A stretch of 64,000 bases of DNA from NCBI GenBank assembly GCA_016748015.1, contig JAAOMT010000553.1, positions 152,923 through 216,922 on the forward strand, given 5' to 3'. Position numbers and translations under genes: made by a program. Positions 10,451 through 63,600 of this stretch are shown here, one piece after another. Under the pieces are notes generated by a model that saw only the letters and a program-made list of their open reading frames with translations, was not told the origin of the DNA and searched no databases. This stretch comes from Geosiphon pyriformis (lineage: Eukaryota; Glomeromycota; Glomeromycetes; Archaeosporales; Geosiphonaceae). Position 1 is the first letter of the stretch, and each line of letters starts with the position of its first letter.

Positions 10451-11135
10451 GGAATATGTGGGGGAGGTAATCTTAGGTCTTTCATCATTATAGACAATAT
10501 CCATTACGAGAAAGTGGTCATGAGAACGATCATGAAAAGGAGGCTTTCCTGTTGCTAATTCCCATAATAACATGGGGCAAAACTATAAATATCACCAGCT
10601 GTTGTAAACTTTGCTCCTCTTAAAACTTCTGGTGGAATGTATGGATAAACTCCATATATCTTTTTCTTCTCTGTTGTTGTTGCTTCATTTTTTACTGGTT
10701 GACATAGTCCGAGGTCTCCAATTACCCAATCATCATAACTTAAGTTTAGGATGTTTCCCGAGTGCAGGCTACGATGAACCATACCAAAATAATGAATCGA
10801 ATCAAGTCCTGCAACTATTCTCCCCACCATATGTAATTTATCTTTCCAACTCACAGAATGAAAATATGTTGAGAAATATTTTCGCATGTCTCCATGTGCG
10901 GCAAACACCATCACGATTCTATACTCGAGTGTTCCAGCGTTTTGCGTAATTCCAAATATTAAATAGATACTCATACTTATTAATAAGCATAGCTCTTTGA
11001 ATATTTAACTATCAACACAGTGTAAAAAATTATAAATTAATAAATAGATAATATAATAAATAGAATAAATAAATAAATAAATAGATAATATACAGTAAAT
11101 AAATAATAGGTAAATATGAATTAAACACAAATATA

Positions 11136-11175
<40 letters not shown>

Positions 11176-11180
11176 GTTTA
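10451..11180. repeat. 730-bp exact duplicate, copy 1 (probable assembly artefact)
   Basis: Identical, as far as I can compare by eye, to 11201-11930 at a constant offset of 750. It ends exactly where the N run begins, and its partner starts exactly where the N run ends. That is the signature of two contigs overlapping by 730 bp that were scaffolded instead of merged. Confidence 0.9.
11138..11176. repeat. (TAA)n microsatellite in kinase intron (also at 11888-11926)
   Basis: About twelve TAA triplets in the single intron of the kinase-like gene. The second occurrence at 11888-11926 is the assembly duplicate. A slippage-prone repeat at the contig end is a plausible reason the assembler stopped here. 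Confidence 0.85.
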
Positions 11181-11200: not shown

Positions 11201-11885
11201 GGAATATGTGGGGGAGGTAATCTTAGGTCTTTCATCATTATAGACAATATCCATTACGAGAAAGTGGTCATGAGAACGATCATGAAAAGGAGGCTTTCCT
11301 GTTGCTAATTCCCATAATAACATGGGGCAAAACTATAAATATCACCAGCTGTTGTAAACTTTGCTCCTCTTAAAACTTCTGGTGGAATGTATGGATAAAC
11401 TCCATATATCTTTTTCTTCTCTGTTGTTGTTGCTTCATTTTTTACTGGTTGACATAGTCCGAGGTCTCCAATTACCCAATCATCATAACTTAAGTTTAGG
11501 ATGTTTCCCGAGTGCAGGCTACGATGAACCATACCAAAATAATGAATCGAATCAAGTCCTGCAACTATTCTCCCCACCATATGTAATTTATCTTTCCAAC
11601 TCACAGAATGAAAATATGTTGAGAAATATTTTCGCATGTCTCCATGTGCGGCAAACACCATCACGATTCTATACTCGAGTGTTCCAGCGTTTTGCGTAAT
11701 TCCAAATATTAAATAGATACTCATACTTATTAATAAGCATAGCTCTTTGAATATTTAACTATCAACACAGTGTAAAAAATTATAAATTAATAAATAGATA
11801 ATATAATAAATAGAATAAATAAATAAATAAATAGATAATATACAGTAAATAAATAATAGGTAAATATGAATTAAACACAAATATA

Positions 11886-11925
<40 letters not shown>

Positions 11926-11930
11926 GTTTA
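11201..11930. repeat. 730-bp exact duplicate, copy 2
   Basis: Second copy of the block at 10451-11180. This copy is the one continuous with the kinase N-lobe exon at 11931-12400, whereas copy 1 is continuous with the 3' flank. Together they reconstruct one locus. Confidence 0.9.
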
Positions 11931-32399: not shown

Positions 32400-32860
32400 T
32401 TAATAACCTCTTTTTCTGCCATATTGACTGGTACATCTATTCTACCTGTTGATCCGAATCTCTGTATTCTTTTAGCTGTAATCCCTAATTTTTCTTTGTT
32501 TTTTACTGATACTAATTGAGTTATTTTTACCAGAGACAGAAATATTGTTTGTACTATCTTTTTGTTTGGCTCTATGATATAAGTCTTTTCTGAATTATTT
32601 TGTAGCATTGTAATGATATTTTCTACATATCTTGCATTAATTATTCCTCCTTTGATGTTGATTCCTCTTTTTATTAAACTACTCCTAGATGCTAATTGAA
32701 CCATAGTTGTTGCTGAAATTTCTAGTGCTATTTTGAGATCAATGCATGTGTGCAAATGTGGTTCCAATTTGATGGCATCTTTCTCTGGATATCTCAGATT
32801 AAACTCTGCATCTGTATTATGCACACATTCTGGCATAATGTCTTTATTGTTGTCACTATA
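32400..32860 (-). pseudogene. dUTPase domain of element A
   Basis: Five trimeric-dUTPase motifs occur in order: DAEFNLRYP (motif 1), LASRSSLIKRGI (2), GGIINARYVENI (3; the catalytic Asp appears as Asn), EPNKKIVQTIF (4) and QRFGSTGR (5, Gly/Ser-rich nucleotide loop). The enzyme normally hydrolyses dUTP to dUMP, limiting uracil in cDNA. This copy has lost the motif 3 Asp and a motif 1 Gly and is probably inactive. Confidence 0.8.
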
Positions 32861-40563: not shown

Positions 40564-41575
40564 TGTTACTAGTAGAATTTTAGCTATTAATTAGCATGAA
40601 ATTATCCTTATAATTCCTATTAGTAATTAACATGTGAATATCAATCCAAATTATTACTTATTATTTAATCAATTTATTACATATCATGATTCAATTAATA
40701 ATCCAATTAGTACAACAAAAAGTAAGATAATTAAATTACACAATACCCTGAACTTTGTAACATTCTAAAATTTGCCAAAATTTACAGAAATTTGTCGAAA
40801 TTTATATGAAATTTGCCAAAATTTATAGAAATTCGCCGAAATTATGAATAGTTTATCCAAATTAATCAATAGTTTAGTGAAATAACTTGTAGTTCATCAA
40901 AATGTATTTTTAGTTTGCCAAAATTTGAGCAAAGAAAAAAAGTGCAAGTTCATAGACTAGTACTACAACAAGTTGTATAAAAGAAGAGCTTTTCTCTTCA
41001 AGAAAATGTATCTTACTTTAGATTTATTACTTAGAACCATTCCTACATACACAAAAAGAAATAAATATCAAATAATTTGAAAAAACCAAATTCTTTAATT
41101 ATTGTACTTGGAACATTCCCAAAACCCAACTAGCATTTTGAAATTGATTAGCTACCAATTTCAGTAAACTGTTAGTGACTCCAGGCCTGGATAGAAAACG
41201 TTTTTCTTGATAAAATCCTATTTTTTTTACATTTTTTTTATTTTTTTTTTCTTTTTTTATTACAATCATTAGAGTAGCCTACAGATGAGATTCCTGTAGA
41301 AGAGTTGACTTTCACAGCAAAGTAACTACACATTTTTAGTGAGCTTCCAGACGAGCAATTCCTGGGAAAAAGTTGACATTTACTACAACATAACTACATA
41401 AAGTAACTGGCAAGAAATTGACCATTCCACTTATAAGCCCAGCAATTCAAATTATAGGAGATAATTTGAAGCTAAATTCAGTTATTGGAGGTTCAACTAC
41501 TTCTAGAAAACGTGAATTTGCAACCAACAGACAGTTACAACATTCAAAAAAAGAGACCAAAAACCTCCAGTAACA
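40564..41575 (+). repeat. LTR-A (5' LTR of element B)
   Basis: TGTTACTAGTAG ... CCTCCAGTAACA, 1012 bp. A TATA box TATAAAAG at 40976-40983 is followed by GAAGAGCTTTTCTC, the likely promoter core. Degenerate AAATTYGCCGAAATT repeats precede it. Confidence 0.88.
40976..40983 (+). promoter_or_regulatory. LTR-A TATA box
   Basis: TATAAAAG at the same place as in LTR-C (57896) and LTR-D (59816). LTR-B has TATAAAAAAAG at 48999. Confidence 0.6.
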
Positions 41576-41593
41576 TTTGGTGCTCTCTCATGG
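41576..41593 (+). other. Primer-binding site of element B
   Basis: TT then TGGTGCTCTCTCATGG after the LTR. The first nine bases after TT match element A's site, suggesting the same primer tRNA. Confidence 0.6.
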
Positions 41594-43320
41594 AAATAAC
41601 ACAGCAAACAACAAACTTCAAAGTGGCAACCACACCAGACACAACAACTCTAGAGTATTATCAGTCAATTTACACCCATTGCAAGCAGAGATTCAACATC
41701 CCAGACGAAATTGAAATTGTTGAAAGAACACTTTACCAATACATTGAAAACTGTATTAACAATTATCTTCTTAGAAATTACAACATTTTAAAAGTAAAAA
41801 GCAACCTCTACAATAATCTAGTACACTATTTACGATTGGGAACTAAAGACCTTAACAGTAAAACACTTGCCACCTACTTTTAAGAACTCAATTACAACAT
41901 TATCAAGTATTGTGAAGAAAAATACCCAGTACAGTCTAAATACTCTTTTGATTTTGAATCAGAAACAGAAACAGACAACAAAGACAAACAAAAAGTGAAA
42001 CAACACTCAAAAAACACTCCAAACATTCCAATACTACCAAAGACAATTGCCAAACACTTGCAAACACCTGAACAAGAAACCAGTATCAAATTACCACTTT
42101 CTATCACACCATTTTCAATTTCACTTGCTCGACCACAAACACTAAATTCACCACTTAACCATTTCTCCAGACCAGAAGAATTTCAGTCACCTAGAAATTC
42201 TACTCAACAGCAGAAACCTATATCAACAAGCACCAATATTATTGAATACTTGCAGGAAAACAAAAGTGATCATTCAAAAAATTTGGAAAGTAAAGAAACT
42301 AAATCAGAACAAGGAGAAGCCACAGAAAACAAAGAGGAAATGGCAACTGCTTACATTGCAAAGATTCCAGAATTCATGAGTGAAGATAATAATACCAGTC
42401 CTCAAAAATAGCTCGACAAAGTTCAAAAAGCAGGAGATGCAAATGGTTGGATTGCAGTAAGAATGCTTAAAACAATTCCCTACTTTCTCTAAGAAACAAC
42501 AGAAGAATGATTTGAAAATTTAGAAGAACCATTTGAAAACTGGCAAGCATTCAAAGATACTTTTCTACAACAATTCACTGACAACAATACCTCTATCACT
42601 CTCAGAAACTGCTTTCACAATATCAAACAAGAAACATCTGAAACTGTTATAACCTATCTTGGAAGATTTAACAAACTTCTTAGACAAATCTGACAATTGG
42701 AAACCAATGACTACTATTCTGATGCTCAAATTCTGGATCAGTTTATAGCAGGGTTAAAAGACCAACTGATTAAGAAAGTCCATCCACATGCTCCAGCAGA
42801 CTTAGCAACTGCTATTAAACATGCAAAGAGTAATGAAATGGCAATGGAAGAAGAAAATTACACCAAGCTTGTAAACCTTGCAATTGAAAAAACCAGCTCA
42901 GCAGCTAAAAAAAAGATAAACCAACTCACAAAAAAAGTTGAAAGCTACTTTACAAACCAACAACAACAGCAATAACAACCACAAAGATATCAACTCCCAC
43001 AATGATGCAACCAAAACAATTTTAGATCACCATCCAACAACCAATCTCAAAATTGTCATTATTGTGGAATTCCAAAACACTGGAAACAAGATTGTAGGAA
43101 ATTACAAAGAGACCAACAAAACAAGAATAATTAACATTACTTTTTATCACAACAATCTTATTACCAATCTCTACCACCAACCTATTATTCACCAAGACCA
43201 CAAAATCAAAACTGTTACTATTTACCAGCTCCACAACCAATGCAGCAACAATATCAGCAACCTTTACCAATTCAGCCATATTAGACACCATCCACTCAAC
43301 AATATCAAGTACTAGCAAGA
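41590..43320 (+). pseudogene. gag of element B
   Basis: Starts at ATG 41590 (MEITQQTTNFKV). The capsid core near 42420-42700 has FENWQAFKDTFLQQF and TYLGRFNKLLRQI, followed by HAPADLATAIKHAK. The zinc knuckle CHYCGIPKHWKQDC near 43050-43095 is an intact CCHC. Interrupted by more than half a dozen stops, most at positions where B2 has CAA, CAG or TGG. Confidence 0.75.
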
Positions 43321-43559
43321 AAATTGGTTTAACATAACCAATTCACACTCCAAAATCAATTGCAGAGTAACCACAACAGAATCAATTTAAATAACCAGTT
43401 GGTTTCCCAAAATTCTGGTCAGCAAAGACCCAATCACTATCACACTTAACCCAGTTATTTTACAATACCAGAGAAATCGGATTTTCAACAAACTGCACTT
43501 TCTGAAGATGAAGTTGCAGCACCAAGATCAAACCCTTCCAACCACACCATTCTACCAGT

Positions 43560-44330
43560 TCAAATTGCCCAAAATGCCAATCTGTCAGATATATTTCCAT
43601 TTGAATTTGAAGCAAATGAATTACCATTTCTGCTTAATAATGCAGCAGTCAATAAACAGAAAGCAATTACTGCTATGTACACAGAAGCTACAGTAAAAGA
43701 AAAACCCATTTGCTTAATCTTAGATAGTGGATTGGCTGGAAGTATCATCACTTACCAGCTGATGCAACAACTCAAACAAAACATAAACAGACCAGCTCAA
43801 ACAGTTATTGTCACAGCTGATGGTATGAAAAAGACTCCAGTAGGAGAAATTGATGATTTTCCCTTTACAATTAATGGAATTACCATTTCAGTTAAAGTTC
43901 TTGTTATAGATGCATCCCAATACTAAGCTCTAGTCAGAAATGATTGGCTTCTCAAGGCCAATGCAAACCTGAACTGGAAAACTCAAGAACTTAAAATCTT
44001 ATACCAAGGACAATATACCATAGTACCTGCAACTTGTGGTATCTTTAACAAATGATCAGAAAAAGCTCTAGTATTTAAATTTGAAGAAGAGAAGGAAATG
44101 CCACTCACTGAAACCTACATGGCTCTTGAATTACTATCCAATTGGGCTGAGGAAACAGAACAAAAGATTTTTGAAAAATCAAGAGGATGGAAGAAAGTTA
44201 GATATTACACCAAAATCATGAAAAAAACCACTATATATTCCACTAAAATACAAAGATTGCAAAAAAAAGCTTTCATCTATGGGAGTCTGTATCTCCCCAG
44301 AAAAAAAATATGAAACTCATACTTGTTACT
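43560..44330 (+). pseudogene. Aspartic protease of element B
   Basis: LILDSGLAGSIITYQLM keeps the DSG catalytic triplet (near 43721-43740). GEIDDFPFTINGI and NDWLLKANANLNW follow as in gypsy proteases. TAA and TGA codons interrupt it near 43924 and 44054, and a frame change follows near 44270. Confidence 0.8.
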
Positions 44331-44985
44331 TCTGCAAAGCATGCCATAGAGAACAATTTGGATCCCCAAAGAGAAGTGAAAAATGAGACAAAACTCTTTG
44401 TCTTACTTGTGGAGAAAGGCTACCAGAAGAATACAATTGGATTGATGTAGCAATGAAAGGAGAAATATGTGATCAGACCTGTCAATATGCTCTATCAATT
44501 TTAGAAAAAGTCAGAAGAGGAATACCATTTGATGCAGCATACAACAGTGCTTTCAATAAACTTTACCACTACCCTCATAATGCTGAAATGATTTTTGACC
44601 TAGCAATAGCATTGATCAATGGAGCCACCCAAGAAGATGTCCACCAAATGAAAGAAGCTGAATACATTGAGTATACCATAGAATTAGCTGGATTTGATTA
44701 TGAAGATGAAGTAAAAACCTACCACCAAATTGCAAGCCACATATATTCGACCAAAGAAGCTCAAATTCAATGATTAGAGCAAATAAACATTCAATTGTGT
44801 AAAGAATGTGTTATGTCTTGTGATGACCAATGGTGTTTAGAATATTATGCTCTTAGCATTCCTCTGCCAGATAAGAATGATAAAAATGAAATCGAATTTG
44901 GAGTATCTGAACTAGTAGAAAAACTACCAACCACTCCTATCTATCTTCTTGAAAAGCAACCACCTCTACAACTTAAATATTTTTT
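44270..44985 (+). pseudogene. Cysteine-rich module of element B
   Basis: CYFCKACHREQFG, CLTCGERLPEE, CDQTCQYA, a helical segment (FDAAYNSAFNKLYHYP), then CKECVMSCDDQWCLEY. At least ten Cys lie in CxxC-like spacing between protease and dUTPase. Probably a zinc-binding module of unknown role. Confidence 0.65.
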
Positions 44986-45425
44986 GACAACCATGGCCAA
45001 AGAATCAGACCAGAAAAAGCACACAAAATTGATGCTAGATATGATCTAAGATACCCAGAAAAAGATACTTTGGTTCTCCAACCAAAGTCCTTGACAAAAA
45101 TTAATCTCAAAATTGCTCTTGAAATTCCACAAAGAACAATGGTTCAAATTGCCTCCAAATCATTATTGGCAAGCAAAGAAATCAATATTAAAGGAGAAGT
45201 TATAGATACAGAATACACTGGAGACATTACCATCATGTTGCAGAATAAGACAGACAAACCATTCAAGATTGAACATGCTGAAAAAATTGCTCAAGCAATT
45301 TACCTACCCTTAATTAATATTTCGGGATTACAATCAGTTAACAACAGAGAACAATTGGGAAAAAGTGAAAAAGAAATGCAAGATTTTGGTTCAACTGGAC
45401 AATTTACAGTTTCAGTAAACATAGC
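44986..45425 (+). pseudogene. dUTPase domain of element B
   Basis: A two-base insertion in a T run near 44985 puts motif 1 (DARYDLRYP) out of frame with the upstream module. Motif 2 is QIASKSLLASKEI, motif 3 GEVIDTEYTGDI with the catalytic Asp kept, motif 4 EKIAQAIYLPLI and motif 5 DFGSTGQ. The fold is recognisable, but the first motif's frame break makes it a pseudogene. Confidence 0.85.
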
Positions 45426-45840
45426 TCTTAATACACAAAATGAATTTCACCAGATTCTTCAACTTCTCCAGCCAATTACTATTTCACTTTTTGGAGAACA
45501 TCACGAAATTTACACTTGCTTAAAACCCACTACTACACAACAAATCTTTGAATTCAATGAACAAATCTGTTTGAAGCATGAAATCTCAAATTCAAATGTT
45601 TATATTCCCAAAGAAATGAAAAAATTTTGAGTTACATTCTACAACTCCAATAATTACCCTATTGTCTTATTAAACAAACTAAAGATTGGAATCATACACA
45701 GCAATATTTTTCAAGATGAAAACCCTCAAATTGTCTTTAATTTCATCGAAATTGTAAGGCACACTCTACTCCCAAATCCAAATATCATTCTAACTACTGA
45801 AAACTACTACTTTTTGGAAGAAAAACTCTCTTGAATCAAC
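45426..45840 (+). pseudogene. Linker between dUTPase and reverse transcriptase, element B
   Basis: NVYIPKEMKKF, then FYNSNNYPIVLLNKL and EIVRHTLL form the beta-type spacer common in gypsy pol. Interrupted by two TGA codons. Confidence 0.5.
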
Positions 45841-46740
45841 ATGGGTCCCTTAGAACCTCAACAACAAAGACAATTAAAACAATTGATAGCTGAATTTGCA
45901 GATATATTTGCAAAAGACAACAATGAACTGGGAAAAATGGATATGGTTCAATATCAGATCTATACAGGAGATGCTCCACCAAAATGTCAGCAAGCTTACA
46001 GAATGCCACCTACCAGCCACCAATTCATCAGTGAAAAAGTCCAGAGAATGCTCAATAACAGATTGATTCAACCATCAAGAAGTCCTTGGGCCTTATCAGT
46101 AGTTCTTGTCAAAATGAAAAATGAAAAAATCAGATTTTGTGTTAACTATTGCCAATTGAACAGTGTGACAATTGGAGATGCCTATCCTCTTTCAAGAATT
46201 GATGACATGCTAGATGCTCTAAGAAAAGCCAAGTTTTTCTCAACTTTAGACTTGAAAAGTGGATACTGGCAAGTCAAAATAGACCCAAAAGACCGACCCA
46301 AAACAGCATTTACCACTCAAAGAGGAAACTATGAGTTCAATGTTATGGCTTTTGAACTCTGCAATGCACCAGCAACATTCCAGTGACTTATGGATGTTGT
46401 ATATAAAAGACTCTTGTGGCAATCAATAGTTGTCTATCTTGATGACACTAATATATACTCACCAAGCTTTGAGACTCATCTTATTTACCTGTGAGAAGTT
46501 TTTCAATGATTACAGAAAGCAGGATTAAAGTTAAACATTGAGAAATGTCACTTTGGAAAAACAAGCTTGATCTTTCTTAGACACATAGTTAGTAAAAATG
46601 GAGTCAAACCAAATCCAGAAACAATTAGTGCTGTGAAAAACTTCCAAACTCCAAAAAATACCACAGAGCTATGAAGATTTATAGGATTAGTCTCCTATTA
46701 CTGAAAATTCATCAAAGGATTCTCAGAAATTGCCAAATCA
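45841..46740 (+). pseudogene. Reverse transcriptase of element B
   Basis: FADIFAKDNNELG, APPKCQQAYRMPP, FCVNYCQLNSVT, FSTLDLKSGYWQV, FELCNAPATFQ and an intact catalytic YLDD at 46435-46446, then KCHFGKTSLIFLRHIVS. TGA codons at 46384 and further downstream break the frame. Confidence 0.88.
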
Positions 46741-46764
46741 CTCAATTATCTCACCAATAAAAAT

Positions 46765-47248
46765 GTGCCATACAAATGGACTGAAGAACAACAAAAAACA
46801 TTTGAAACCCTCAAAACAAAGCTGACAACAGCCCCAGTTCTTGCTTATCCAGACTTCAACAAACAATTTCAACTAGCCACTGATGCTTTACACATAGCAT
46901 TTGGTGCCATCTTATTACAATTGAATGAAAATAGCCAGGAACAAGTTATCACCTATGCCAGCAGAACATTCAAGCCAACAGAACTCAAATATGGCTCAAC
47001 TGAATTGGAAGCCACTGTAGTCATCTGGGCTCTCAAACACTTTCAACAATACCTGAAGAATGGAAAAAAATTTAACATAATAACTGACAATATTGGCCTC
47101 AAATGACTTAATAAAAAGAAAACTGAACAAAGTGCTAAACAGTATCAATAGAATGACTTCTTAGCAGACTACAGATATATTGTACATCACAAACCAGAAA
47201 AACTACACACCAATGTTGATAGCCTCTCAAGAATAAGACAATATTAAT
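46765..47248 (+). pseudogene. RNase H of element B
   Basis: PYKWTEEQQKTFETLK connection, LATDALHIAFGAI (catalytic Asp), ELEATVVIWALKHF (Glu helix) and IITDNIGLK (Asp). A TGA follows LK, where B2 has TGG. Confidence 0.8.
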
Positions 47249-47329
47249 ACCAACATCAACACCAACAAAACACCAACAAACTTAACAGCAGAACAAAAAA
47301 CAAAATTAACAACAATAGATCCAAAAAAC

Positions 47330-48605
47330 TACAACAACATCAAAAACTATTTGGAGACTCTTACCATGCCAGAAAATTGGTCTCCAAGTAAAAAACATCA
47401 ATTACAACACCAATCCAAACAATATTTTATACACCACAACAAAATCTATTACAAAAATTGTAAAAACCCAAACCAACCACTCAGATTAGTACAAGAAAAT
47501 GAAAAAAAAACAATTCTATACAACATGCACACAGATTCTTCTTCAGCACACTTGGGAAGAGATGAAACAATTCAAAGAACTCTTGAACATTATTTTTGGC
47601 CTCACATGCAAAAAGACATTCGACAATATGTAGAATTTTGTGATAGTTGTCAAAGAAAAAGAGGAACTCGCCACACAGAACTTTTAAATCCAATTAAAGT
47701 TGGACAGAGTTGAAATTGATTTAGTCGGACCATTACCTATCACAACCCAAGGAAATTAATATATTGCAGTTGCAGTGGATTATTTTACCAAATGGCTTGA
47801 AGCTAGAGCCATCCAAAAAGCAGATGCAAAATCAGTAGCAAATTTCATCTATGAAAACATTATCTGTAGACATGAATGCCCAATTGAACTCTTATCTGAT
47901 CAAAGAACACATTTTGTGAACAACTTAATACAAGAAATTTGTGAATGATTCAATGTCAAAAGACCTCTATCATTATCTTATCACCCTCAAACAAATGTAC
48001 TTGTAAAATGTTTTAACAAAACATTGTGTGAATCTCTAGCCAAAGTTTCAATAGACTTTGAACAGAAATGGGATATCTTTATTCCATCAGTATTACTAGT
48101 ATACAGAACACTAAAACAAGATATTATGAAACACACACTATTTGATCTTACTTATGGAAGAACAGCAATATTACCAATTAATTTTACAGTGGAAACATAT
48201 CCTGTGCAACCAATTAATGAAGAGAACTTGCAAGAAACACTCCAAAGAAGGGCCTACACTCTCCTTAGTACACTGGAAGGAAAAAAAAGGATAGCAGCAA
48301 CTTATATTGAATATTCTCAAGCTTAACAAAAAGAAAGACATAACAACAAATTACCACTCATAACCAACGAATTTAAAATAGGAAATAAAGTTCTCTTATA
48401 CAGAACTAAGGCTGAAAAACAATAGAATGGGAAATTTGAAAACAAATGGGATGAACCATTTTATATTCACGAAATTCTAGGCAATAGATCATGCAAGTTA
48501 AGACTTGATAACAAAGTACTAGCAAAAGTTGCACATGAAGATAGATTAAAATACTATCATTCCAGAAACAATCCTGAACTATTAATTCCACAAATTGGTA
48601 CACAT
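47330..48605 (+). pseudogene. Integrase of element B
   Basis: HHCC finger (MHTDSSSAHLGRDETI, CDSCQ) present. Core: IDLVGPLPI, LLSDQRTHFVN, then TNVLVKCFNKTLCE with Lys (48006-48008) for the catalytic Glu. The GPY/F-type end (DEPFYIHEILG) follows. The end is cut at 48605 by insertion of element B2. Confidence 0.82.
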
Positions 48606-49597
48606 TGTTACCAGTAAAATTTTAGTTATTAATAAGCATGAAATTACTCTTATAATTCCTATAATTAATTAGTATATTAATATCATTTCAAATTATCATT
48701 TATTATTTAATCAATTATCACATATCACGATTCAATCAAAATAATCTAATTAGTATAACAGAAAGTAGGATGATCAAATTACACAATACTCTGAACTTTA
48801 TAATATTCAAAAATTCGCCGAAATTTACAGAAATTTGCCAAAATTTATAAGAAATTCGCCGAAATTATGAATAGTTCACCCAAATTAATCAATAGTTCAG
48901 CAAAATAACTTGTAGTTCATCAAAATGTATCTTTAATTTGCTGAAATTTGAGCAAAGAGAAAAAGTGCAAGTTCATAGACTAGTACTACAACAAGCTGTA
49001 TAAAAAAAGAGCTTTTCTCTTCAAGAAAAGATATCTTACTTTAGGTTTATTACTTAGAACCATTCCTATACACACAAAAAGAAATAAATATCAAATAATT
49101 TGAAAAACCAAATTTTTTAATTATTACACTTGGAAAATCTTCAAAACCCAACTAACATTTTGAAATTGATTAGCTACCAATTTCAATAAACTGTTAGTGA
49201 TTCCATGCCTGGATAGAAAATGTTTCTCTCAATAAAATTCTATTTCTTTTACATTTCTTTTATTTATTTTTTCTTTTCTTATTACAATCATTAATGTAGC
49301 CTACAGACAAGATTTCTGTAGAAGAGTTAACTTTCACAGCAAAGTAACTACACATTTTAGTGAGCTTCCAGATAAGCAATTTCTGGGAAAGAGTTAACAT
49401 TTACTACAATGTAACTACATAAAATAACTGGTAAGGAATTGGTCATTCCCTTCATAAGCCCAGCAGTTCAAATTATAGGAGATAATTTGAAGATAAATTC
49501 AGTTATTGGAGGTTTAATTGCTTCCAGAAAACGTGAAATTAACAACAGACAAACAGTAACAACATTCAAAAAAAGAGACCAAATATCTCTGGTAACA
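48606..49597 (+). repeat. LTR-B (5' LTR of element B2)
   Basis: TGTTACCAGTAAAATT ... CTCTGGTAACA, 992 bp, followed by PBS TTTGGTGTTCTTCC. TATA-like TATAAAAAAAG at 48999. Confidence 0.9.
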
Positions 49598-49611
49598 TTT
49601 GGTGTTCTTCC

Positions 49612-51300
49612 ATGGAAATAACACAGCAACAACAAATTCAAAGTGACAATCACACCAGAAACAGCAACTCTAGAGTATTATCAGTCAATTTACACCCACT
49701 GCAAGCAAAGATTCAACATTTCAGACAGAATTGAAGTTGTCAAGAAATCAGTATACCAATACATTGAAAACCACATCAACAATTATCTTTTTGGAAACTA
49801 CAACATTTCAGAAGTTAGAAACAACCTCTACAATAATTTAGTGCACTATTCACAATTGGGAACAGAAGATCTGAACAGTGAAACACTTGCTACCTACTTC
49901 CAAGAACTTAATTTTAACATTATTGAGTATTGTGAAGAAAAATACCTAGTACAGTCTAAATACTCTTTTGACTTTGAATCAGAGATAGAAACAAGCAACA
50001 AAGACAAACAAGGATTGAAGCAATACTCAAGAACCACTCCAAACACTTCAACACTACAAAAGACACCTGCCAAATACTTGCAAACACTTGAACAAGGAAC
50101 TAGTGTCAAATTACCACTTTTTATTACACTATTTCTAATTTCACTTGTTTAACCACAAACACCAAATTCACCACTCAACTGCTTCTCTAGACCAGAAGAT
50201 TTTCAGTCATCTAGAAACCCTACTCAACAGCAGAAACCAATATCAACAAGTGCCAATATCATTGATTACTTACAAAAAAATGAAAGTAATCATTCAGAAA
50301 GCTTGGAAAGTGAAGAAACTGAATCAGAACCAGAAGAAATTACAGAAACCGAAGAAAAAATGGCAACTGCTTACATTGCAAAAATCCCAGAATTCACTGG
50401 TAAAGACAATGATACCAGTCCTCAAGAATGGCTTGACAAAGTTCAAAAAGCAGGAGATGCTAATAGTTGGATCGCAGCAAGAATGCTCAAAGCAATTCCC
50501 TATTTTCTTTAAAGAACAGCAGGAGAATGGTTTGAAAATTTAGAAGAACCATTTGAAAACTGGCAAGCATTCAAAGATGCTTTTCTACAATAATTTACTA
50601 ACAACAATACCTCTATTACTCTCAGAAACCACTTTCACAATATCAAACAAAAAACATCTAAAACTGTTATGACCTATCTTAGAAGATTTAACAAACTTCT
50701 CAGATGAATCTAACAATTAAAAACCAATGACTACTATTCTGATGCTTAAATTCTGGATCAGTTTATAGCAAGGTTAAAAAACAAATTGATTAAAAAAGTC
50801 CATCTACATGCTCCAGCAGACTTAGCAACTGCTATTAGACATGCAAAGAGCTATGAAATGGCAATGAAAAAAGCAAATCACACCAAGCTTGTAAATCTTG
50901 CAATTAAAGAAACCAGCTCAGCAGCTGAAGAGAAGATAGACCAACAACAACAGCAACAACAACCACAAAGATATCAACCCCCACAACGACACAACCAAAA
51001 CAATTTTGGATCACCATCCAACAACCAATCTCAAAATTGTCATTATTGTAGAATTCCAGAACACTAGAAACAAGATTGTAGAAAATTACAAAGAGACCAA
51101 CAAAACAGGAGTAATCAACATTACTCTTCACCACAACAATCCTATTACCAATCTCTACCACCAACTTATTATTCACCAAGACCACAAAATCAAAACAGTT
51201 ACTATCCACCAGCTCCACAACCAATGCAGCAACAATATCAGCAACCTTTACCAATTCAGCCATATCAGACACCACCCACTCAACAATATTAAGTACCAGC
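49612..51300 (+). pseudogene. gag of element B2
   Basis: The ATG at the PBS edge is followed by two 1-base deletions relative to B, so the coding frame (TITPETATLEYYQSIYTHC) starts out of phase. Capsid motifs are present (FENWQAFKDAFLQ, HLHAPADLATAI). Zinc knuckle CHYCRIPEH-stop-KQDC: the Trp codon TGG of B is TAG here (51065-51067). Confidence 0.78.
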
Positions 51301-51307
51301 AAGAAGA

Positions 51308-52250
51308 TTGGTTCAATATAACCAATTCACACCCCAAAATCAATTACAGAGTAACCACAACAGAATCAATCCAAATAACCAGTTGGTTTCCCAAAATTCT
51401 GGTCAGCAAAGACCCAATCACTATCACACTCAACCCAGTTATCTTACAATACCAGAGAAATCGGATTTTCAACAAACTGCACTTTCTGAAGGTGAAGTTG
51501 CAGCACCAAGTTCAAACCCTTCCAACCACATCATTCCACCAGCTCAAATTGCCCAAAATTCCAATCTGTCAGATATATTTCCATTTGAATTTGAAGCAAA
51601 TGAATCACCATTTCTGCTTAGTAATGTAGCAGTCAATAAACAGAAAGCAATTACTGCTATGTGCACAGAAACTACAGTGGAAAGAAAACCTATTCGCTTA
51701 ATCTTAGATAGTGGATTGGCTGGAAGTATCATCACTTACCAGCTGATACAACAACTCAAACGAAACATAGACAGACCAGCTCAAACAGTTATTGTCACAG
51801 CTGATGGTATGAAGAAGACTCCAATAGGAGAAATTGATGACTTCCCCTTTACAATTGATGGAATTATCATTCCAGTTAAAGTTTTTGTTATGGATGCACC
51901 CCAATATCAAGCTCTAATTGGAAATGATTGGCTTCTCAAGGCCAATGCAAACCTGAACTAGAAAACTCAAGAACTTAAAATCTCATACCAAGGACAATAT
52001 ACTATAGTATCTGCAACCTGTGGTATCTTTAACAAACGATCAGAAAAAGCTCCAGTATTTGAATTTGAAGAAGAAAAGGAAATGCCACTCACTGAAACCT
52101 ACATGGCTCTTGGATTATTATCCAATTGGGCTGAGAAAACAGAACAAAAGATTTTTGAAAAATCAAGAGGATGGAAGAAAGTTAGATATTCCACACCAGA
52201 ACCATAAAAAAAACCACTATACATTCCACTAAAATACAAAGATTGCAAAA
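51308..52250 (+). pseudogene. Aspartic protease of element B2
   Basis: A long open stretch (51308-51961) includes a Gln/Asn/Pro-rich spacer, LILDSGLAGSIITYQL with intact DSG, GEIDDFPFTIDGI and IGNDWLLKANANLN. A TAG ends it at 51959, where B has TGG. Confidence 0.85.
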
Positions 52251-52254
52251 AAAA

Positions 52255-52970
52255 GCTTTTATCTATGGGAGCCTGTATCTCCCCAGAAGAGAAATACGAA
52301 ACTCATACTTGTTACTTCTGCAAGACATGCTATAGAAAACGATTTGGATCCCCAAAGAAAAGTGAAAAATAGGACAAAACTCTTTGCTTCACATGTGGAG
52401 AAATGCTACCAGAAGAATGCAATTGGATTGATGTAGCAATGAGAGGAGGAGTATATAATCAAACCTGTCAATATGCTCTATCAATTGTGGAAAAAGTCAG
52501 AAGAGGAACACCATTTGATGCAGCATACAACAGTGCTTTCAATAAACTTTACCACTACCCTTATAATGCTGAAATAATTTTTGACCTAGTAATGGCATTA
52601 ATCAATAGAGCCACCCAAAAAGATGTTCACTAAATGAAAGAAGCTGAATATATTGAATATACTATAAAATTAGCTGGATTTGATTATGAAGATGAAGTAG
52701 AAACCTACCACCAAATTGCAAGCCACACATATCCGACCAAAAAAGCTCAAATTCAACAATTAGAGCAAATGAACATTCAATTGTGTGAAGAATGTGTTAT
52801 GTCTTGTGATGACCAATGGTGTTTAGAATATTATGCTCTTAGCATTCCTCTGCCAGATGAGAATGACGAAAATGAAATCGAATTTGGAGTATCTGAACTA
52901 GTAGAAGAACTACCAACCACTCCCATCTATCTTCTTGAAAAGCAACCACCTCTACAACTTAAATATTTTG
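52255..52970 (+). pseudogene. Cysteine-rich module of element B2
   Basis: CYFCKTC, CFTCGEMLPEEC, a YNQTC that is CDQTC in B, then CEECVMSCDDQWCLEYY at 52780-52830. One TAG near 52370 and one TAA at 52631. Between the Cys clusters lies a roughly 100-residue helical part. No known family recognised. Confidence 0.68.
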
Positions 52971-53395
52971 ACAACCATGGCCAAGGAATCAGACCAGAAA
53001 AAGCACACGAAATTGATGCTAGATATGACTTAAGATACCCAGGAAAAGATACTTTGGTTCTCCAACCAAAGTTTTTGAAAAAAATCCATCTCAAAATTGC
53101 TCTTGAAATTCCACAAAGAGCAATGGTTCAAATTGCCTCCAGATCATTATTGGCAAGCAAAGGAATCAATATTAAAGGAGGAGTTATAGATGCAGGATAC
53201 ACTGGAGACATTTCCATCATATTACAGAATGAGACAGACAAACCATTCAAAATTGAACATGCTGAAAAAATTGCTCAAGCAATTTACTTACTCTTAATCA
53301 ACATTTCGGGATTACAATCAATAAACAACAGAGAACAATTGGAAAAAAGTGAAAAAGGAACTCAAGGTTTTGGTTCAACTGGATGATTTACAGTT
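52971..53395 (+). pseudogene. dUTPase domain of element B2 (best preserved copy)
   Basis: All five motifs are in one open frame: DARYDLRYPGKD (only the motif 1 Gly is replaced by Arg), QIASRSLLASKGI, GGVIDAGYTGDI (catalytic Asp and Tyr present), EKIAQAIYLLLI and GTQGFGSTG. The frame is continuous with the preceding Cys-rich part from 52634 and stops with TGA directly after GSTG, where B has CAA. The family is a homotrimeric dUTP pyrophosphatase; it would act on the nucleotide pool during reverse transcription. Confidence 0.9.
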
Positions 53396-53823
53396 CTAGT
53401 AAACATAGCTCTTAATACACAAAATGAATCTCACCAGATTTTTCAACTTTTCTAGCCAATTAACATTTCACTTTTTGAAGAACATCACAAAATTTATACT
53501 TGCTCAAAACCCACTACCACACAACAAATCTTTGAATCCAATGAACAAATCTGTTTGAAGCATGAAATCTCAATTCCAAACGTTTATATTCTCAAAGGAA
53601 TGAGAAAATTTTGAGTTACATTCTACAACCCAATAATTACCTTATTGTTTTATTAAACAAACTAGAGATTGAAATCATACACAGCAATATTTTTCAAGAT
53701 GAAAACCCTCAAATTGTCTTTAATTTCATCGAAATTGTAAGGCACACTCTACTTCCAAATTCAAATGTCATTCCTACTACTGAAAACTACTACTTTTTGG
53801 AAGAAAAACTCTCTTGAATCAAC
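53396..53823 (+). pseudogene. Linker between dUTPase and reverse transcriptase, element B2
   Basis: Same beta-type spacer as in B (NNYLIVLLNKLEIEIIHSN, EIVRHTLLPN), with stops and one small deletion near 53627. Confidence 0.5.
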
Positions 53824-54740
53824 ATGGGTCCTTTAGAATCTCAACAACAAAGACAATTGAAACAATTGATAGCTAAATTTGCAGATATATTTGCAAAAGA
53901 CAACAATGACTTGGGAAAAACAGACATTGTTCAATATCTGATCCATACAGGAGATGCTCCACCAAAACATCAACAAGCCTATCAAGTGTCACCTGCCAGC
54001 CACCAATTCATCAGAGAAGAGGTCCAAAGAATGCTCAATAATGGATTGATTCAACTATCAAAAAGTCCTTGGGCCTCACCAGTAGTTTTAGTTAAAAAGA
54101 AAAACGGAAAAATCAGATTCTGTGTTGATTATAGACAACTGAATAGTGTTACAATTGGAGATGCCTACCCTTTTCCAAGAATTGATGACATGCTAGATGC
54201 TCTAAGAAAAGCCAAGTTTTTCTCAACTTTAGACTTGGAAAGTGGATACTGGCAAGTCGAAATGGACCCAAAAGACCGACCCAAAACAGTATTTACCCCA
54301 AGAAGGAAACTATGAGTTCAATATTATGCCTTTTGGACTCTGCAATGCACCAGCAACATTTCAACAACTCATGGATGTTGTATATAAAAAACTCTTATGG
54401 CAATCAGTAGTTGTTTACCTTGATAACACTAATGTGTACTTACCAAGTTTTAAAGCCCATCTTATTCATTTGCAAGAAGTTTTTCAATGATTACGGAAAG
54501 CAGAATTGAAGTTGAATATTGAGAAATGTCACTTTGAAAAAACAAGCTTAATCTTTCTTGGGCACATTATTAGCAAAGATGGAGTCAAATTAAACCCTGG
54601 AACAATTAGTGCTGTCAAAAACTTCTAAACCCCAAAAAATACTACAGAGCTACGAAGATTTGTAGGATTAGCTTCCTATTACCAAAAATTCATTAAAGGA
54701 TTCTCAGAAATTGCCAAACCACTCAATTATCTTACCAATA
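53824..54740 (+). pseudogene. Reverse transcriptase of element B2
   Basis: Open from 53824 to 54315, with FADIFAKDNNDLGK, WASPVVLVKKKNGKIRFCVDYRQLN and FSTLDLESGYWQVEMD. A frameshift near 54300 joins FTPRR to EGNYEFNIMPFGLCNAPATFQQL. The active site is YLDN (54416-54427), not YLDD. Confidence 0.88.
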
Positions 54741-54745
54741 AAAAT

Positions 54746-55228
54746 GTGCCATACAAATGGACTGAAGAACAACAAAAAGCATTTGAAACTCTCAAAACAA
54801 AGCTGAAAACAGCCCCAGTTCTTGCTTACCCAGACTTCAACAAACAATTTCAACTAGCCACTGATGCTTTACACATAGCATTTGGTGTCATCTTATCACA
54901 AGTAGATGAAAATGGGCAAGAACAAGTCATCACTTATGCTAATAGAACACTCAAATCAACAAAACTAAAATACAGCTCAACTGAATTAGAAGCTGTCACA
55001 GTTATTTGGGCTCTTAAACATTTTCAACAATATCTGAAGAATGAAAAAGAATTTGACATAATAACAAACAACATTGGCCTCAAATGGCTCAATAAAAAGA
55101 AAACTGAACAAAGTGCCAAACAGTCTTGATAAAATAACTTCCTAGCAAACTACAGATATATTGTACACCACAAACCAGAAAAACTACATACCAATGTTGA
55201 TAGCCTCTTAAGAATAAGACAAGATTAA
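54746..55228 (+). pseudogene. RNase H of element B2
   Basis: LATDALHIAFGVI, ELEAVTVIWALKHF, then IITNNIGLKWL with Asp changed to Asn. Ends in a stop-rich tether before integrase. Confidence 0.8.
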
Positions 55229-55285
55229 TACCAACAACAATTCCACCACAGCTTACCAACCTACCAACAAAATAACCAAACAAAA

Positions 55286-56660
55286 ATGAATCCCAGAAAT
55301 TACAGCAATCTTAAAAATTATTTGGAGACTCTTACTATGCCAGAAAACTGGTCTCCAAGTGAAAAACATTGTTTACAACACCAATCAAAACAATATTTTA
55401 TACACCAGAACAAAATCTATTATAAAAATCACAGAAACCCAAACCAACCACTTAGATTAGTACAAGAGAATAAAAAAGAAACAATTTTATACAACATGCA
55501 TACAGATCCATCTTCAGCACACTTGGGAAGAGATGGAACAATTCAAAGAACCCTTGAACATTATTTTTGGCCTCACATGCAAAAAAACATTTGACAATAT
55601 GTAGAATTTTGTGATAGTTGTCAAAGAAGAGGAGGAACTCGCCCCACAGAACCTTTAAATCCAATCAAAGTTGGACAACCTTTTGACAGAGTTGGAATTG
55701 ATTTAGTCGAACTATTACCTATCACAATCCAAGGAAATTGTTATATTGCAGTTGCAGTGAATTATCTTACCAAATGGTCTAAAGCTAGAGCCATCCAAAG
55801 AGCAGATGCAAAATCAGTAGCAAATTTCATCTATGAAGACATTATCTGTAGACATAGATGCCCAATTGAACTCTTATCTGATCAAAGAACACATTTTGTA
55901 AACAACTTGATACAAGAAATTTGTGAATGATTCAATATCAAAAGATCTCTATTATCACCTTATTACTCTTAAACAAATGAACTTGTAGAACGTTTCAACA
56001 GAACATTGTGTGAATCTTTAGCCAAAGTCTCAACAAACTTTGAGCAGGAATAGGATATCTTTATTCCATCAGTATTACTAGCATACAGAACACTGAAACA
56101 AGATACTATGAAACACACACTATTTGATCTTACTTATGGAAGGACAGCAATATTACCAATTAATTTTACAGTAGAAACATACCCAGTGCAACCAATCAAT
56201 AAAAAAAACTTTCAAAAAACACTCCAAAAAAGAGCCTACACTCTTTTTAGTACACTGGAAAAAAAAAAAAAATAGCAGCAACTCATATTGAACATTCCCA
56301 AGCTCAACAAAAAGAAAGACATAACAACAAATTACCATCTATTACCAACGAATTTAAAGTTGGAAATAAAGTTCTCTTACACAGAACTAAGACTGAAAAA
56401 CAATGGAGTGGGAAATTTGAAAACAAATGGAATGGACCATTTTATATTCACGAAATTCTAGGCAATAGATCATACAAATTAAGACTTGATGACAAAATAC
56501 TAGCAAAAGTTGCACATGGAGACAAATTGAAATACTATCATTCCAGAAACAATCCTGAACCATTAATTCCACAAATTGGGACACATCCCCTTTTAATTAA
56601 TTCTGAAGATATTTCCCGAAATTTAGAACCAATAATTATAATAAACAACAACCAAACTTA
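55286..56660 (+). pseudogene. Integrase of element B2
   Basis: HHCC finger complete (MHTDPSSAHLGRDGTI, CDSCQ). Core GIDLV, LLSDQRTHFVN and TNELVERFNRTLCE with the catalytic Glu kept (55988-55990). The GPY/F module KWNGPFYIHEILG near 56425-56465 follows, then LIPQIGTHPLLINS. Five or more stops interrupt it. This uninterrupted 3' part shows what the nested insertion removed from B. Confidence 0.85.
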
Positions 56661-56814
56661 AACACTTAAATTTTACAATAATTCTCCAATAAAAACACAA
56701 AGACAAAAATAGTAAATAAATTACAAAAACACCCAAACCCAAAAACAAATAAAAATCTCATATCCCAAAAATAATTTTCCTTATTCTCTCTTTTCATAAT
56801 TAGTCAATTTTATT
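56661..56814 (+). other. Spacer between pol and third ORF
   Basis: A-rich, non-coding, homologous to 58560-58737 of element B. It could hold a subgenomic promoter or splice site; nothing diagnostic seen. Confidence 0.5.
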
Positions 56815-57522
56815 ATGATTATTCCCCAAAATATTCAACAAATATCCCAAAAGTTAATGTTAGTCTTAAAAACACTTCCTGACTTATCCATAACAATTAA
56901 TAGAAGTCAAATTAATTACATTCAGAAAAAAACCACAGTTCCAATAGCAAATCATTTACAGAACTATCACCCCTATAGAAGAAAAACAAGAAGTCACTCT
57001 GAGAATAGATTACCAAGACTTTTGAAGCAGGCACTAGAAGAAAATCTTTTAATTGCCTCTATTGACATTTCACCAAATACTACAATACAACAAAAACTTC
57101 TACTACTTCTTAATGAACAGAACAATGAACACACCCCTATCTATAAATACTTTCAAATTGGAAAAACACTTTATGAACAAAAACTAGAACTTGAAGCAAC
57201 AAATATCACTTCTGAAGTTATACAAAAACAAATCCACAATGAATTCAAAACAGCAGCTGGACCAACAAACACTCATTACAGACTGAGAGCAGCTCTTAAA
57301 CTCTATGACTTGTTCAATACTTGTGAAAATGTTTTACAAAATCCAATACTGCAACCAATGAAAGTCCAATACATTAGCAAGCTCACAGAACTGAAATTTC
57401 AAGAATTTTCAGACCAGATTACTTCAATTATTTTGGATCACTATCTCAATATTACAGATAGTGCTTGGACTTTGACGGAGCTCAGTCTTGAAGAGGAGAT
57501 TATGTTACCAGTAGAATTTTAG
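56815..57522 (+). CDS. Third ORF of element B2, intact, unknown protein (235 aa)
   Basis: An uninterrupted frame from ATG 56815 to TAG 57520-57522, the only long intact gene in the four elements. The protein has a leader MIIPQNIQQISQKLMLVLK, a basic patch YHPYRRKTRSHSEN, a helical mid-part (TIQQKLLLLLNEQNNEH, YRLRAALKLYDLFNTC) and an acidic end LSLEEEIMLPVEF. It has no signal peptide or membrane helix, so it is not env-like. Its last codons encode the polypurine tract and the first 20 bases of LTR-C, so the stop codon lies inside the LTR. A frameshifted homologue is at 58738-59444 and a distant one in element A. I do not recognise the family. Confidence 0.75.
   Translation: MIIPQNIQQISQKLMLVLKTLPDLSITINRSQINYIQKKTTVPIANHLQNYHPYRRKTRSHSENRLPRLLKQALEENLLIASIDISPNTTIQQKLLLLLNEQNNEHTPIYKYFQIGKTLYEQKLELEATNITSEVIQKQIHNEFKTAAGPTNTHYRLRAALKLYDLFNTCENVLQNPILQPMKVQYISKLTELKFQEFSDQITSIILDHYLNITDSAWTLTELSLEEEIMLPVEF
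57489..57502 (+). other. Polypurine tract of element B2
   Basis: TTGAAGAGGAGATTA abuts LTR-C directly. The same text precedes LTR-D at 59411-59424. Confidence 0.7.
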
Positions 57523-58494
57523 TTATTAATTAGCATGAAATTACCCTTATAATTCCTATAATTAATTAGTATATTAATATCATTTCAAATTATCATTTAT
57601 TATTTAATCAATTATCACATATCACGATTCAATCAAAATAATCTAATTAGTATAACAGAAAGTAGGATGATCAAATTACACAATACTCTGAACTTTATAA
57701 TATTCAAAAATTCGCCGAAATTTACAGAAATTTGCCAAAATTTATAAGAAATTTGCCGAAATTATGAATAGTTCACCCAAATTAATCAATAATTCAGCAA
57801 AATAACTTGTAGTTCATCAAAATGTATCTTTAATTTGCTGAAATTTGAGCAAAGAGAAAAAGTGCAAGTTCATAGACTAGTACTACAACAAGCTGTATAA
57901 AAGAAGAGCTTTTCTCTTCAAGAAAAGGTATCTTACTTTAGATTTATCACTTAGAACCATTCCTATACACACAAAAAGAAATAAATATCAAATAATTCGA
58001 AAAACCAAATTCTTTAATTATTACACTTGGAAAATCTTCAAAACCCAACTAACGTTTTGAAATTGATTAGCTACCAATTTCAATAAACTGTTAGTGATTT
58101 CACGCCTGGATAGAAAACGTTTCCCTTGATAAAATCCTATTTCTTTTACATTTCTTTTATTTTTCTTTTTTTTTCTTATTACAATCATTAGGGTAGCCTA
58201 CAGATGAGATTCCTGTAAAAGAGTTGACTTTCACAGCAAAGTAACTACACATTTTAGTGAGCTTCTAGACAAGCAATTTCTGGGAAAGAGTTGATGTTTA
58301 CTACAATGTAACTATATAAAATAACTGGCAAGGAATTGGCCATTCCTTTCATAAGCCCAGCAGTTCAAATTATAAGAGATAATTTGAAGATAAATTCAGT
58401 TATTGGAGGTTCAATTGCTTCCAGAAAACGTGAAATTAACAACAGACAAACAGTAACAACATTCAAGAAAAAAGACCAAAAACCTCTGATAACA
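57503..58494 (+). repeat. LTR-C (3' LTR of element B2)
   Basis: TGTTACCAGTAGAATTTT ... CTCTGATAACA, 992 bp, near-identical to LTR-B. TATA box TATAAAAG at 57896-57903. Confidence 0.9.
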
Positions 58495-59424
58495 ATATTC
58501 TCCTTTAATTAATCTTGAAGATATTCTCTGAAATTTAGAACCAATAATTATAATAGAATAACAACCAAACTTAAACACTTAATTCAACATAATTTTACAA
58601 TAATCTTTAATAATACACAAAAGACAAAAATAATAAATAATTACAAACACCCAAAACCCAAAAACAAATAAAACCCCAGACCCAAAAAAAAATATTTTTC
58701 TTTATTTTTCTTTTTCACTAATTAGTCAATTTTATCATGATTATTCCCTAAAATATTCAACAAATATTCCAAAAATTAATGTTAGTCTTGAAAACACTTC
58801 CTGACTTATCCATAACAATTAATGAAAGTCAAATCAATTACATTCAAAAAGAAACCACAGCCCCAGTAATAAATAATTCTCAGAACTACCACCCCTATAG
58901 AAGAAAAACAAGAAGTCACTCTGAGAATAAGTTACCAGAACTTTTGAAGCAGGCACTAAAAGAAAACTTTTTATCTGCCCCTATTGACATTCCACCAAAT
59001 GCTACAATGCAACAAAAACTTTTACTACTTCTCAATGAACAGAACAATGAACACATTCTTATATTTAAATACTTTCTGCATTGGAAAAGCACTTTATGAA
59101 TGAAAACTAGAACTTGAAGCAACAAATACCAACCCAGAAGCCATACAAAAACAAATTCACAATGAATTCAAGACAGCAGCTGGATCAACAAATACTCGCT
59201 ACAAACTTAGAGCAGCTCTTAGACTCTATGACTTGTTTAATACTTGTGAAAACGTCCTACAAAGCCCAATACTTCAATCATTGAAATACAATACATTAAA
59301 AAGCTCACAAAACTGAAATTTCAACAATTTTCAGAGCAAATCACTTCAATTATTTTGGATCACTATCTCAATATTACAGATAGTGCTTGGATTTCGACGG
59401 AGCTCAGTCTTGAAGAGGAGATTA
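58495..59424 (+). pseudogene. 3' internal remainder of outer element B with decayed third ORF
   Basis: Resumes B exactly where 48605 stopped: ATATTCTCCTTT corresponds to ACATCCCCTTTT of B2. The third-ORF homologue starts at ATG 58738, is open from 58779 as MLVLKTLPDLSITINES, and breaks by frameshift near 59080 (KYFLHWKSTL). Further fragments (RAALRLYDLFNTCENVLQ) run to the polypurine tract. Confidence 0.85.
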
Positions 59425-60406
59425 TGTTACCAGTAGAATTTTAGTTATTAATTAGCATGAAATTACCCTTATAATTCCTATCATTAATTAACATATTAAT
59501 ATCAATCCAAATTATCACTTATTATTTAATCAATTTATCACATATCACGATTCAATTAATAATCTAATTAGTACAACAGAAAGTAGGATGATCAAATTAC
59601 ACAATACTCTGAACTTTGTAACATTCTAAAATTCGCCGAAATTTACAAAAATTCGCCGAAATTTATAGAAATTTGCCGAAATTATGAATAGTTTATCCAA
59701 ATTAATTAATAGTTCAGCGAAATAACTTGTAGTTCATTAAAATGTATTTTTAGTTTGCCAAAATTTGAGCAAAGAGAAAAAGTGCAAGTTCATAGACTAG
59801 TACTACAACAAGTTGTATAAAAGAAAAGCTTTTCTTTTCAAGAAAATGTATCTTACTTTAGATTTATTACTTAGGACCATTCCTATATACACAAAAAGAA
59901 ATAAATATCAAATAATTCAAAAAAACCAAATTCTTTAATTATTGCACTTGGAAAATCCCCAAAACCCAACTAGCGTTTTGAAATTAATTAGCTACCAATT
60001 TCAGTAAACTGTTAGTGACTCCAGGCCTGGATAGAAAACGTTTCTCTTGATTTCTTTTACATTTTTTTTATTTTTTTATTTTTTTTCTTATTATAATCAT
60101 TAGGGTAGCCTACAAACGAGATTCCTGTAGAAGAGTTGACTTTTACAGCAAAGTAACTACACATTTTTAGTAAACTTCCAAATGAGCAATTCCTGGGAAA
60201 GAGTTGACATTTACTACAACGTAACTACATAAAGTAACTGGCAAGAAATTGGCCATTCCACTTATAAGCCTAGCAGTTCAAATTATAGGAGATAATTTGA
60301 AGATAAATTCAGCTATTAGAGGTTTAACTACTTCTAGAAAACGTGAATTTGCAACCAACAGACAGTTACAACATTCAAGAAAAGAGACCAAAAACCTCCA
60401 ATAACA
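59425..60406 (+). repeat. LTR-D (3' LTR of outer element B)
   Basis: TGTTACCAGTAGAATTTT ... CTCCAATAACA, 982 bp, pairing with LTR-A by shared variants. TATA box at 59816-59823. The right flank is inside the integrase gene of element C. Confidence 0.88.
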
Positions 60407-63109: not shown

Positions 63110-63600
63110 GGTACATCTATTCTACTTGTGGACCCGAATTCCTGCATCCCTCTAGCTGTAATCCCTAATTCTTTCCTGTTTCCTACTGACACTAACTGAG
63201 CTATTTTTATCAGAGGTAGAAATATTGTCTGTGCTATTTTTTGTTTGGCTCTATAATATAGGCTTTTTCAGAGTCATTCTGTAGCATTACAATAATGTTT
63301 TCTACATATCCTGTATTAATTATTCCTCTTCTGATGTTTATTCCCTTTTTTGCTAAACTACTCTTAGATGCTAGTTGAACCATTGTTGTTGCTGGGATTT
63401 CCAGTGCTATTTTGAAATCAATATAGATGTGCAAATGTGGTTCTAATTTGATGGTGTCTTTTCTGGGATATTTCAGATCAAATCTTACATCAGTATCATG
63501 TGCACATTCTGGCATAATACTTTCATTATTATTACTGAACCATCTGAGTTTCTGCTTTTTGGAGAGATCAAGAAGTGTGATGTATGTTTTGGAATTTGAA
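63110..63600 (-). pseudogene. dUTPase domain of element C
   Basis: DVRFDLKYP (motif 1), QLASKSSLAKKGI (2), RGIINTGYVENI (3, Asp to Asn), then a 1-base frameshift after EPNKK, KIAQTIFLPLIKI (4) and MQEFGSTSR (5, last Gly to Ser). Clearly homologous to the copy in A. Confidence 0.8.

Follow-up and report, generated by a model that had tools for sequence, protein, structure and literature searches.

dUTPases hydrolyze dUTP to dUMP, the attacking water being coordinated by the aspartate of motif 3, and the retroviral enzymes that have been studied are homotrimers (PMC4531489). Fungal Ty3/gypsy LTR retrotransposons can carry such a domain. PosPlaTy3-5 of Postia placenta, described by 2010, has a dUTPase between the protease (PR) and the reverse transcriptase (RT), and the same source cites earlier elements with a dUTPase from Phanerochaete and Tuber (PMC2864245). 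The LTR elements Juno, Vesta and TelKA of bdelloid rotifers have the dUTPase between PR and RT (PMC5408684), as do the giant Gypsy elements of planarians (PMC6431247). In the Glomeromycotina, dUTPase is named among transposon-derived domains (PMC11878562), and in Entomophthora muscae PF00692 is enriched along with retroelement domains (PMC11105155). A term search of the main text of a fungal LTR survey (PMC3248453) returned no dUTP, and searches of one open-access library found no detailed description of such elements in Geosiphon or the Glomeromycotina.

The sequence-only reading of the Geosiphon pyriformis locus described here had taken a dUTPase in a Ty3/gypsy element to be hardly known, a view which the published elements of Postia, bdelloids and planarians overturn. 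The Geosiphon elements extend the well-documented dUTPase-bearing gypsy elements to the Glomeromycotina, at high copy number. They share with PosPlaTy3-5 and the other fungal elements both the Ty3/gypsy type and the position of the dUTPase between PR and RT. The fungal elements are discussed in PMC2864245 as chromodomain elements, whereas the broken frames of the Geosiphon element E2 that were searched gave no chromodomain match, only SH3_Tf2-1 under its cut-off (the two are compared by description only). For Juno, Vesta and TelKA, too, no chromodomain is reported; these elements differ by their animal host and their extra ORF3 types, and the zinc knuckle of Juno follows the dUTPase, whereas the cysteine-rich region of the Geosiphon elements precedes it (PMC5408684). 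The planarian elements also have an animal host, and their very large ORF includes further captured domains (PMC6431247). The dUTPases of betaretroviruses and non-primate lentiviruses are likewise of the trimeric type and part of a retroelement polyprotein, but the domain lies between RT and integrase (IN) in the lentiviruses and is joined to parts of NC and Pro in MMTV, unlike the PR–RT position in Geosiphon (PMC4531489).

The window, that is, the whole stretch of 64,000 nucleotides that was analysed, contains four copies of the dUTPase domain, all of which score above the PF00692 cut-off of 22 bits in a Pfam profile search of the window's frames (Table 1). A trimeric dUTPase had been proposed at 52971-53395, and the profile search confirms it: the domain of E2 has the five motifs in order, including the catalytic aspartate of motif 3. 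The same domain had been placed at 44986-45425, 32400-32860 and 63110-63600, and each of these matches PF00692. The last covers only profile positions 3-93, the remainder of the dUTPase being out of frame. The elements on the minus strand are both members of a third lineage, C. The proposed setting in a fungal Ty3/gypsy element, with the protease on one side and RT on the other, also stands, on the evidence of Pfam domains and LTRs.

Table 1. Features of the dUTPase-bearing elements in the window (B1 and B2 are the names used in the sequence-only reading)
Feature	Position	Strand	Evidence
Element E2 (B2), Ty3/gypsy LTR element with dUTPase	48606-58494	+	LTR pair, domains, frames; broken by stops and frameshifts
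E2 5' LTR (TG...CA)	48606-49597	+	self-comparison
E2 candidate primer-binding site (TGG..., 2 nt past LTR)	49600-49611	+	read by eye
E2 aspartic protease domain	51650-51949	+	PF13650 3.3e-8, PF13975 2.5e-7
E2 region between protease and dUTPase	51950-52993	+	Cys-rich in relatives with open frames
E2 dUTPase domain	52994-53383	+	PF00692 73.3 bits, 2e-20; frame 52634-53383, residues 121-250; PDB matches
E2 linker	53384-53817	+	
E2 frame with start of RT domain	53818-54312	+	PF00078 9.5e-12
E2 RNase H domain	54758-55117	+	PF17919 1.6e-34, PF17917 3e-26
E2 integrase zinc-binding domain	55460-55591	+	PF17921 1.1e-8
E2 integrase core	55676-55927	+	PF00665 3.9e-7, 30.7 bits, below cut-off 32.6
E2 integrase C-terminal SH3-like (Tf2-1 type) module	56362-56541	+	PF24626 2e-5, 25.1 bits, below cut-off 30
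E2 candidate polypurine tract	57490-57499	+	read by eye
E2 3' LTR	57503-58494	+	self-comparison
Element E1 (B1), split by E2	40564-60406 (parts 40564-48605, 58495-60406)	+	LTR pair, self-comparison
E1 LTRs	40564-41575 and 59425-60406	+	self-comparison
E1 dUTPase domain	45010-45399	+	PF00692 63.1 bits, 2.9e-17; frame 44977-45627, residues 12-141
dUTPase domain, third-lineage element (C)	32447-32836	-	PF00692 49.5 bits, 4.6e-13; frame 32956-32312, residues 41-170; RT tree
dUTPase domain, second lineage C element	63243-63521	-	PF00692 35.7 bits, 8.7e-9; frame 63833-63237, residues 105-197; RT tree

Self-comparison of the window shows that B1 and B2 are not merely adjacent: E2 sits inserted within E1. 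Their LTRs are about 1 kb long, start with TGTTA and end with TAACA, and are 947/992 (E2) and 919/981 (E1, with 32 gap columns) identical within a pair. Read by eye, both elements have a PBS-like site starting with TGG two bases inside the LTR and a purine-rich stretch ahead of the 3' LTR. The target-site duplication of E2 is imperfect (ACAT / ATAT), and E1 has no clear one. The Pol of E2 is distributed over several reading frames, and the window copies no longer code for a whole Pol. No gag match to Pfam was obtained in the window frames searched; the gypsy-type gag PF03732 is above its cut-off in two annotated Geosiphon proteins, P0122 and P0125, both of which have PR and dUTPase, while PF19259 (Ty3_capsid) is below its own in these proteins. 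Past the E2 integrase region there is an open frame of 240 residues without Pfam match (56800-57519).

B2 had been regarded as the best copy, but it is decayed: its dUTPase frame has a stop codon directly after GFGSTG, and two of its residues are minority states among 40 other copies read (the R of DARYDL in 3/40, the K before GTQGFGSTG in 5/40). Decay by C-to-T change after insertion would explain these odd residues. In the LTR pairs, 41 of the 45 differences in E2 and 58 of the 62 in E1 are transitions, with four transversions in each. The transitions are of both kinds (24 C/T and 17 A/G in E2, 33 C/T and 25 A/G in E1), and CpG sites differ most often between paired LTRs (5/15 in E2, 11/17 in E1). 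Hypermutation of one cDNA strand, or any strand-specific cause, is therefore unsupported; the differences fit post-insertion C-to-T decay that affected both strands, perhaps at methylated cytosines. The CpA preference of classical RIP was not observed in the LTR pair differences of E1 and E2. The prevalence of transitions on both strands, commonest at CpG, suggests that decay in this member of the Glomeromycotina is linked to methylation or resembles RIP.

Geosiphon belongs to the Archaeosporales, within the Glomeromycotina. A profile search of its genome with the dUTPase model gave 3181 candidates, of which 150 were scored, all above cut-off. At least 150 places are at least 78% identical to the window domain and belong to lineage B; 19 further copies that were read are members of lineage A and share about 50-56% identity with that domain. 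The dUTPase-bearing copies in this genome thus number at least 169, which is a lower bound. The architecture was read in the best 40 of the 150 scored places, each with 3 kb on either side, and wherever domains are detected their order is PR, dUTPase, RT, RNase H, IN, consistently in 40/40 copies. All five domains are found in 24 copies, PR to RNase H in six, PR to RT in 2/40, PR and dUTPase only in seven, and dUTPase to IN without PR in 1/40. The best 120 of 448 protein matches, those listed, are all Geosiphon pyriformis proteins. This is a warning for annotation: well over a hundred annotated Geosiphon dUTPase-domain proteins are transposon pieces.

These results make it likely that the stretch is a retroelement-encoded dUTPase of the homotrimeric type, inside the Pol polyprotein of Geosiphon pyriformis Ty3/gypsy LTR retrotransposons, with a role in cDNA synthesis. 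In a Pol laid out as PR, Cys-rich region, dUTPase, linker, RT, RNase H and IN, the domain would trimerise and would convert dUTP to dUMP within the particle or close to it. With dUTP held low during the copying of RNA by RT, the cDNA would be spared uracil incorporation and uracil-directed repair. Non-dividing cells have low dUTPase (PMC4531489), and the benefit would be greatest in nuclei and hyphae without ongoing DNA replication. By analogy with the known enzymes, it is plausible that the element dUTPase limits uracil in cDNA, as the sequence-only reading had suggested.

That the domain resembles a dUTPase by chance, or is some other beta-barrel, could be argued from the match of all four window frames to PF22769, a related dCTP deaminase model, and from a PHROGs search in which the dCTP deaminase family appears beside the dUTPase family. 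Both matches are the weaker ones, however: scores against the dUTPase models are far higher, and dUTPases are the top fold matches among those listed, so that the element domain has the dUTPase fold. This explanation is refuted, its remaining probability being negligible; the lack of any family match or a fold unlike dUTPase, which had been named in advance as grounds for giving up the assignment, was not encountered. It is also conceivable, if unlikely, that the domain was kept for a non-catalytic role, either as a regulator or as a component of Pol with a structural or trimer-forming function, hydrolysis being lost or incidental. Motifs 2 and 4 are indeed altered relative to cellular enzymes (SRSSLA instead of PRSGLA, EKIAQ instead of GDRIAQ), and there is a retroviral precedent in the dUTPase-related protein of BIV, which is inactive yet matters for replication (PMC4261571, PMC4531489). 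The substrate site nevertheless appears intact, which a mere spacer would not need: of 40 copies, 36 keep the motif 3 Asp, and all 40 keep the motif 3 Tyr, the motif 4 Gln and the motif 5 GFG. Three aligned metagenome relatives likewise keep Asp, Tyr, Gln and GFG. The Asp of motif 1 is kept in 38/40 copies and the Arg of motif 2 in 34/40. The substitution ratios show, at the level of codon comparison, that the dUTPase lineage is under constraint. Within lineage B, the JC dN/dS is 0.19 for the dUTPase, 0.16 for RT, 0.17 for RNase H and 0.17 for PR, in a sample picked by dUTPase score, which lowers the apparent dN of the dUTPase and biases the comparison in its favour. Between A and B it is 0.23 for the dUTPase and 0.22 for RNase H, dS being saturated for PR and RT; within lineage A, in which six regions were compared and copies differ little, it is 0.41 for the dUTPase and 0.33-0.67 for the other domains.

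Capture of the domain from a host gene, also proposed in the sequence-only reading, is not borne out for Geosiphon's own gene. The host does possess a dUTPase, encoded by a separate gene at about 402.2-403.1 kb of contig C262, with canonical motifs and some five exons by eye; its joined exons score 200 bits against the Arabidopsis enzyme. Searches with the dUTPase profile and with yeast DUT1 did not distinguish this gene from element copies, and it was located via DNA patterns of the cellular motifs 2 and 3. (A second motif 3 match, on C309, was rejected as a host dUTPase, since by eye it is a decayed element copy.) The host protein is 59% identical to the yeast enzyme and 70% to that of Arabidopsis, but shares only 32-34% identity with the domains of the Geosiphon element lineages A, B and C. 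Among ten compared rows, element and cellular domains are 28-38% identical, and elements of different lineages 36-65%. In a tree of 25 element and cellular rows, a branch supported at 99/99 separates all 19 element domains from the six cellular ones; long branches lead to P0152 and to the lineage C row of the window. A recent capture from this host is thus very improbable, given this branch and the low identity to cellular domains. The dUTPase is an old component of its pol lineage, common to metagenome relatives.

These relatives are the metagenome pols P0143, P0152, P0155-P0160 and P0163, in which the listed Pfam domains include a dUTPase with RT; all except P0160 also have PR ahead of the dUTPase. 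No relative was confirmed when viral contigs were scanned with P0143. P0163 has a Cys-rich region as in the Geosiphon elements and a linker of similar length, whereas in P0143 and P0155-P0159 the distance from PR to dUTPase is only 112-157 residues, with one CxxC (P0143) or none. The Cys-rich region spans about 300 residues and contains 17-20 cysteines, with five CxxC both in L007 and in P0163, relatives whose frames are open; that of L007 has no Pfam match. In E2, L007 and P0163 it is probably zinc-binding. The linker of P0163, between dUTPase and RT, scores above all 300 shuffles when compared with dUTPases and could be a degenerate relative of them. Three other linker rows do not exceed all 300 shuffles, a profile comparison of linker and dUTPase gives a probability of 4.7%, and the structure model of the linker is of low confidence. 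An undescribed pol layout for the Geosiphon elements, with the dUTPase placed between a long, probably zinc-binding Cys-rich region and a degenerate dUTPase-like linker, is thus quite doubtful. Under such a layout, the dUTPase and the ordinary PR–RT linker found in many gypsy elements would both be versions of a single ancient module.

Not all gypsy elements of Geosiphon carry a dUTPase. Among the 20 places with the best RNase H scores, four have one at the expected distance; the remaining 16 have, in the corresponding stretch, a protease in 15 cases and neither domain in one. Twelve of the 20 places, two of them dUTPase-bearing, were included in an RT tree, in which the ten dUTPase-less places (including the one that lacks the protease) branch together (100/100), separately from the Geosiphon lineages with a dUTPase, which make up one group (100/97). 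The outgroup pols P0143 and P0152 carry a dUTPase too, so that either loss in the dUTPase-less family or gain in the others is compatible with the tree. Since a dUTPase-less gypsy family is common in this genome, the domain is not needed for spread in Geosiphon. The presence of both family types in one genome offers a natural comparison of the benefit of the dUTPase, for example in copy number, in mutation or in where the elements are active.

Two repeats lie elsewhere in the window. A 51-bp unit is repeated 8.1 times at 99% identity (15701-16114), within a region of FAD_binding_4 and BBE domains (14272-16522) which is likely a gene for an oxidoreductase of the berberine-bridge type. Two 730-bp copies, 100% identical and 20 bp apart (10451-11180 and 11201-11930), are either a recent duplication or an assembly artefact.
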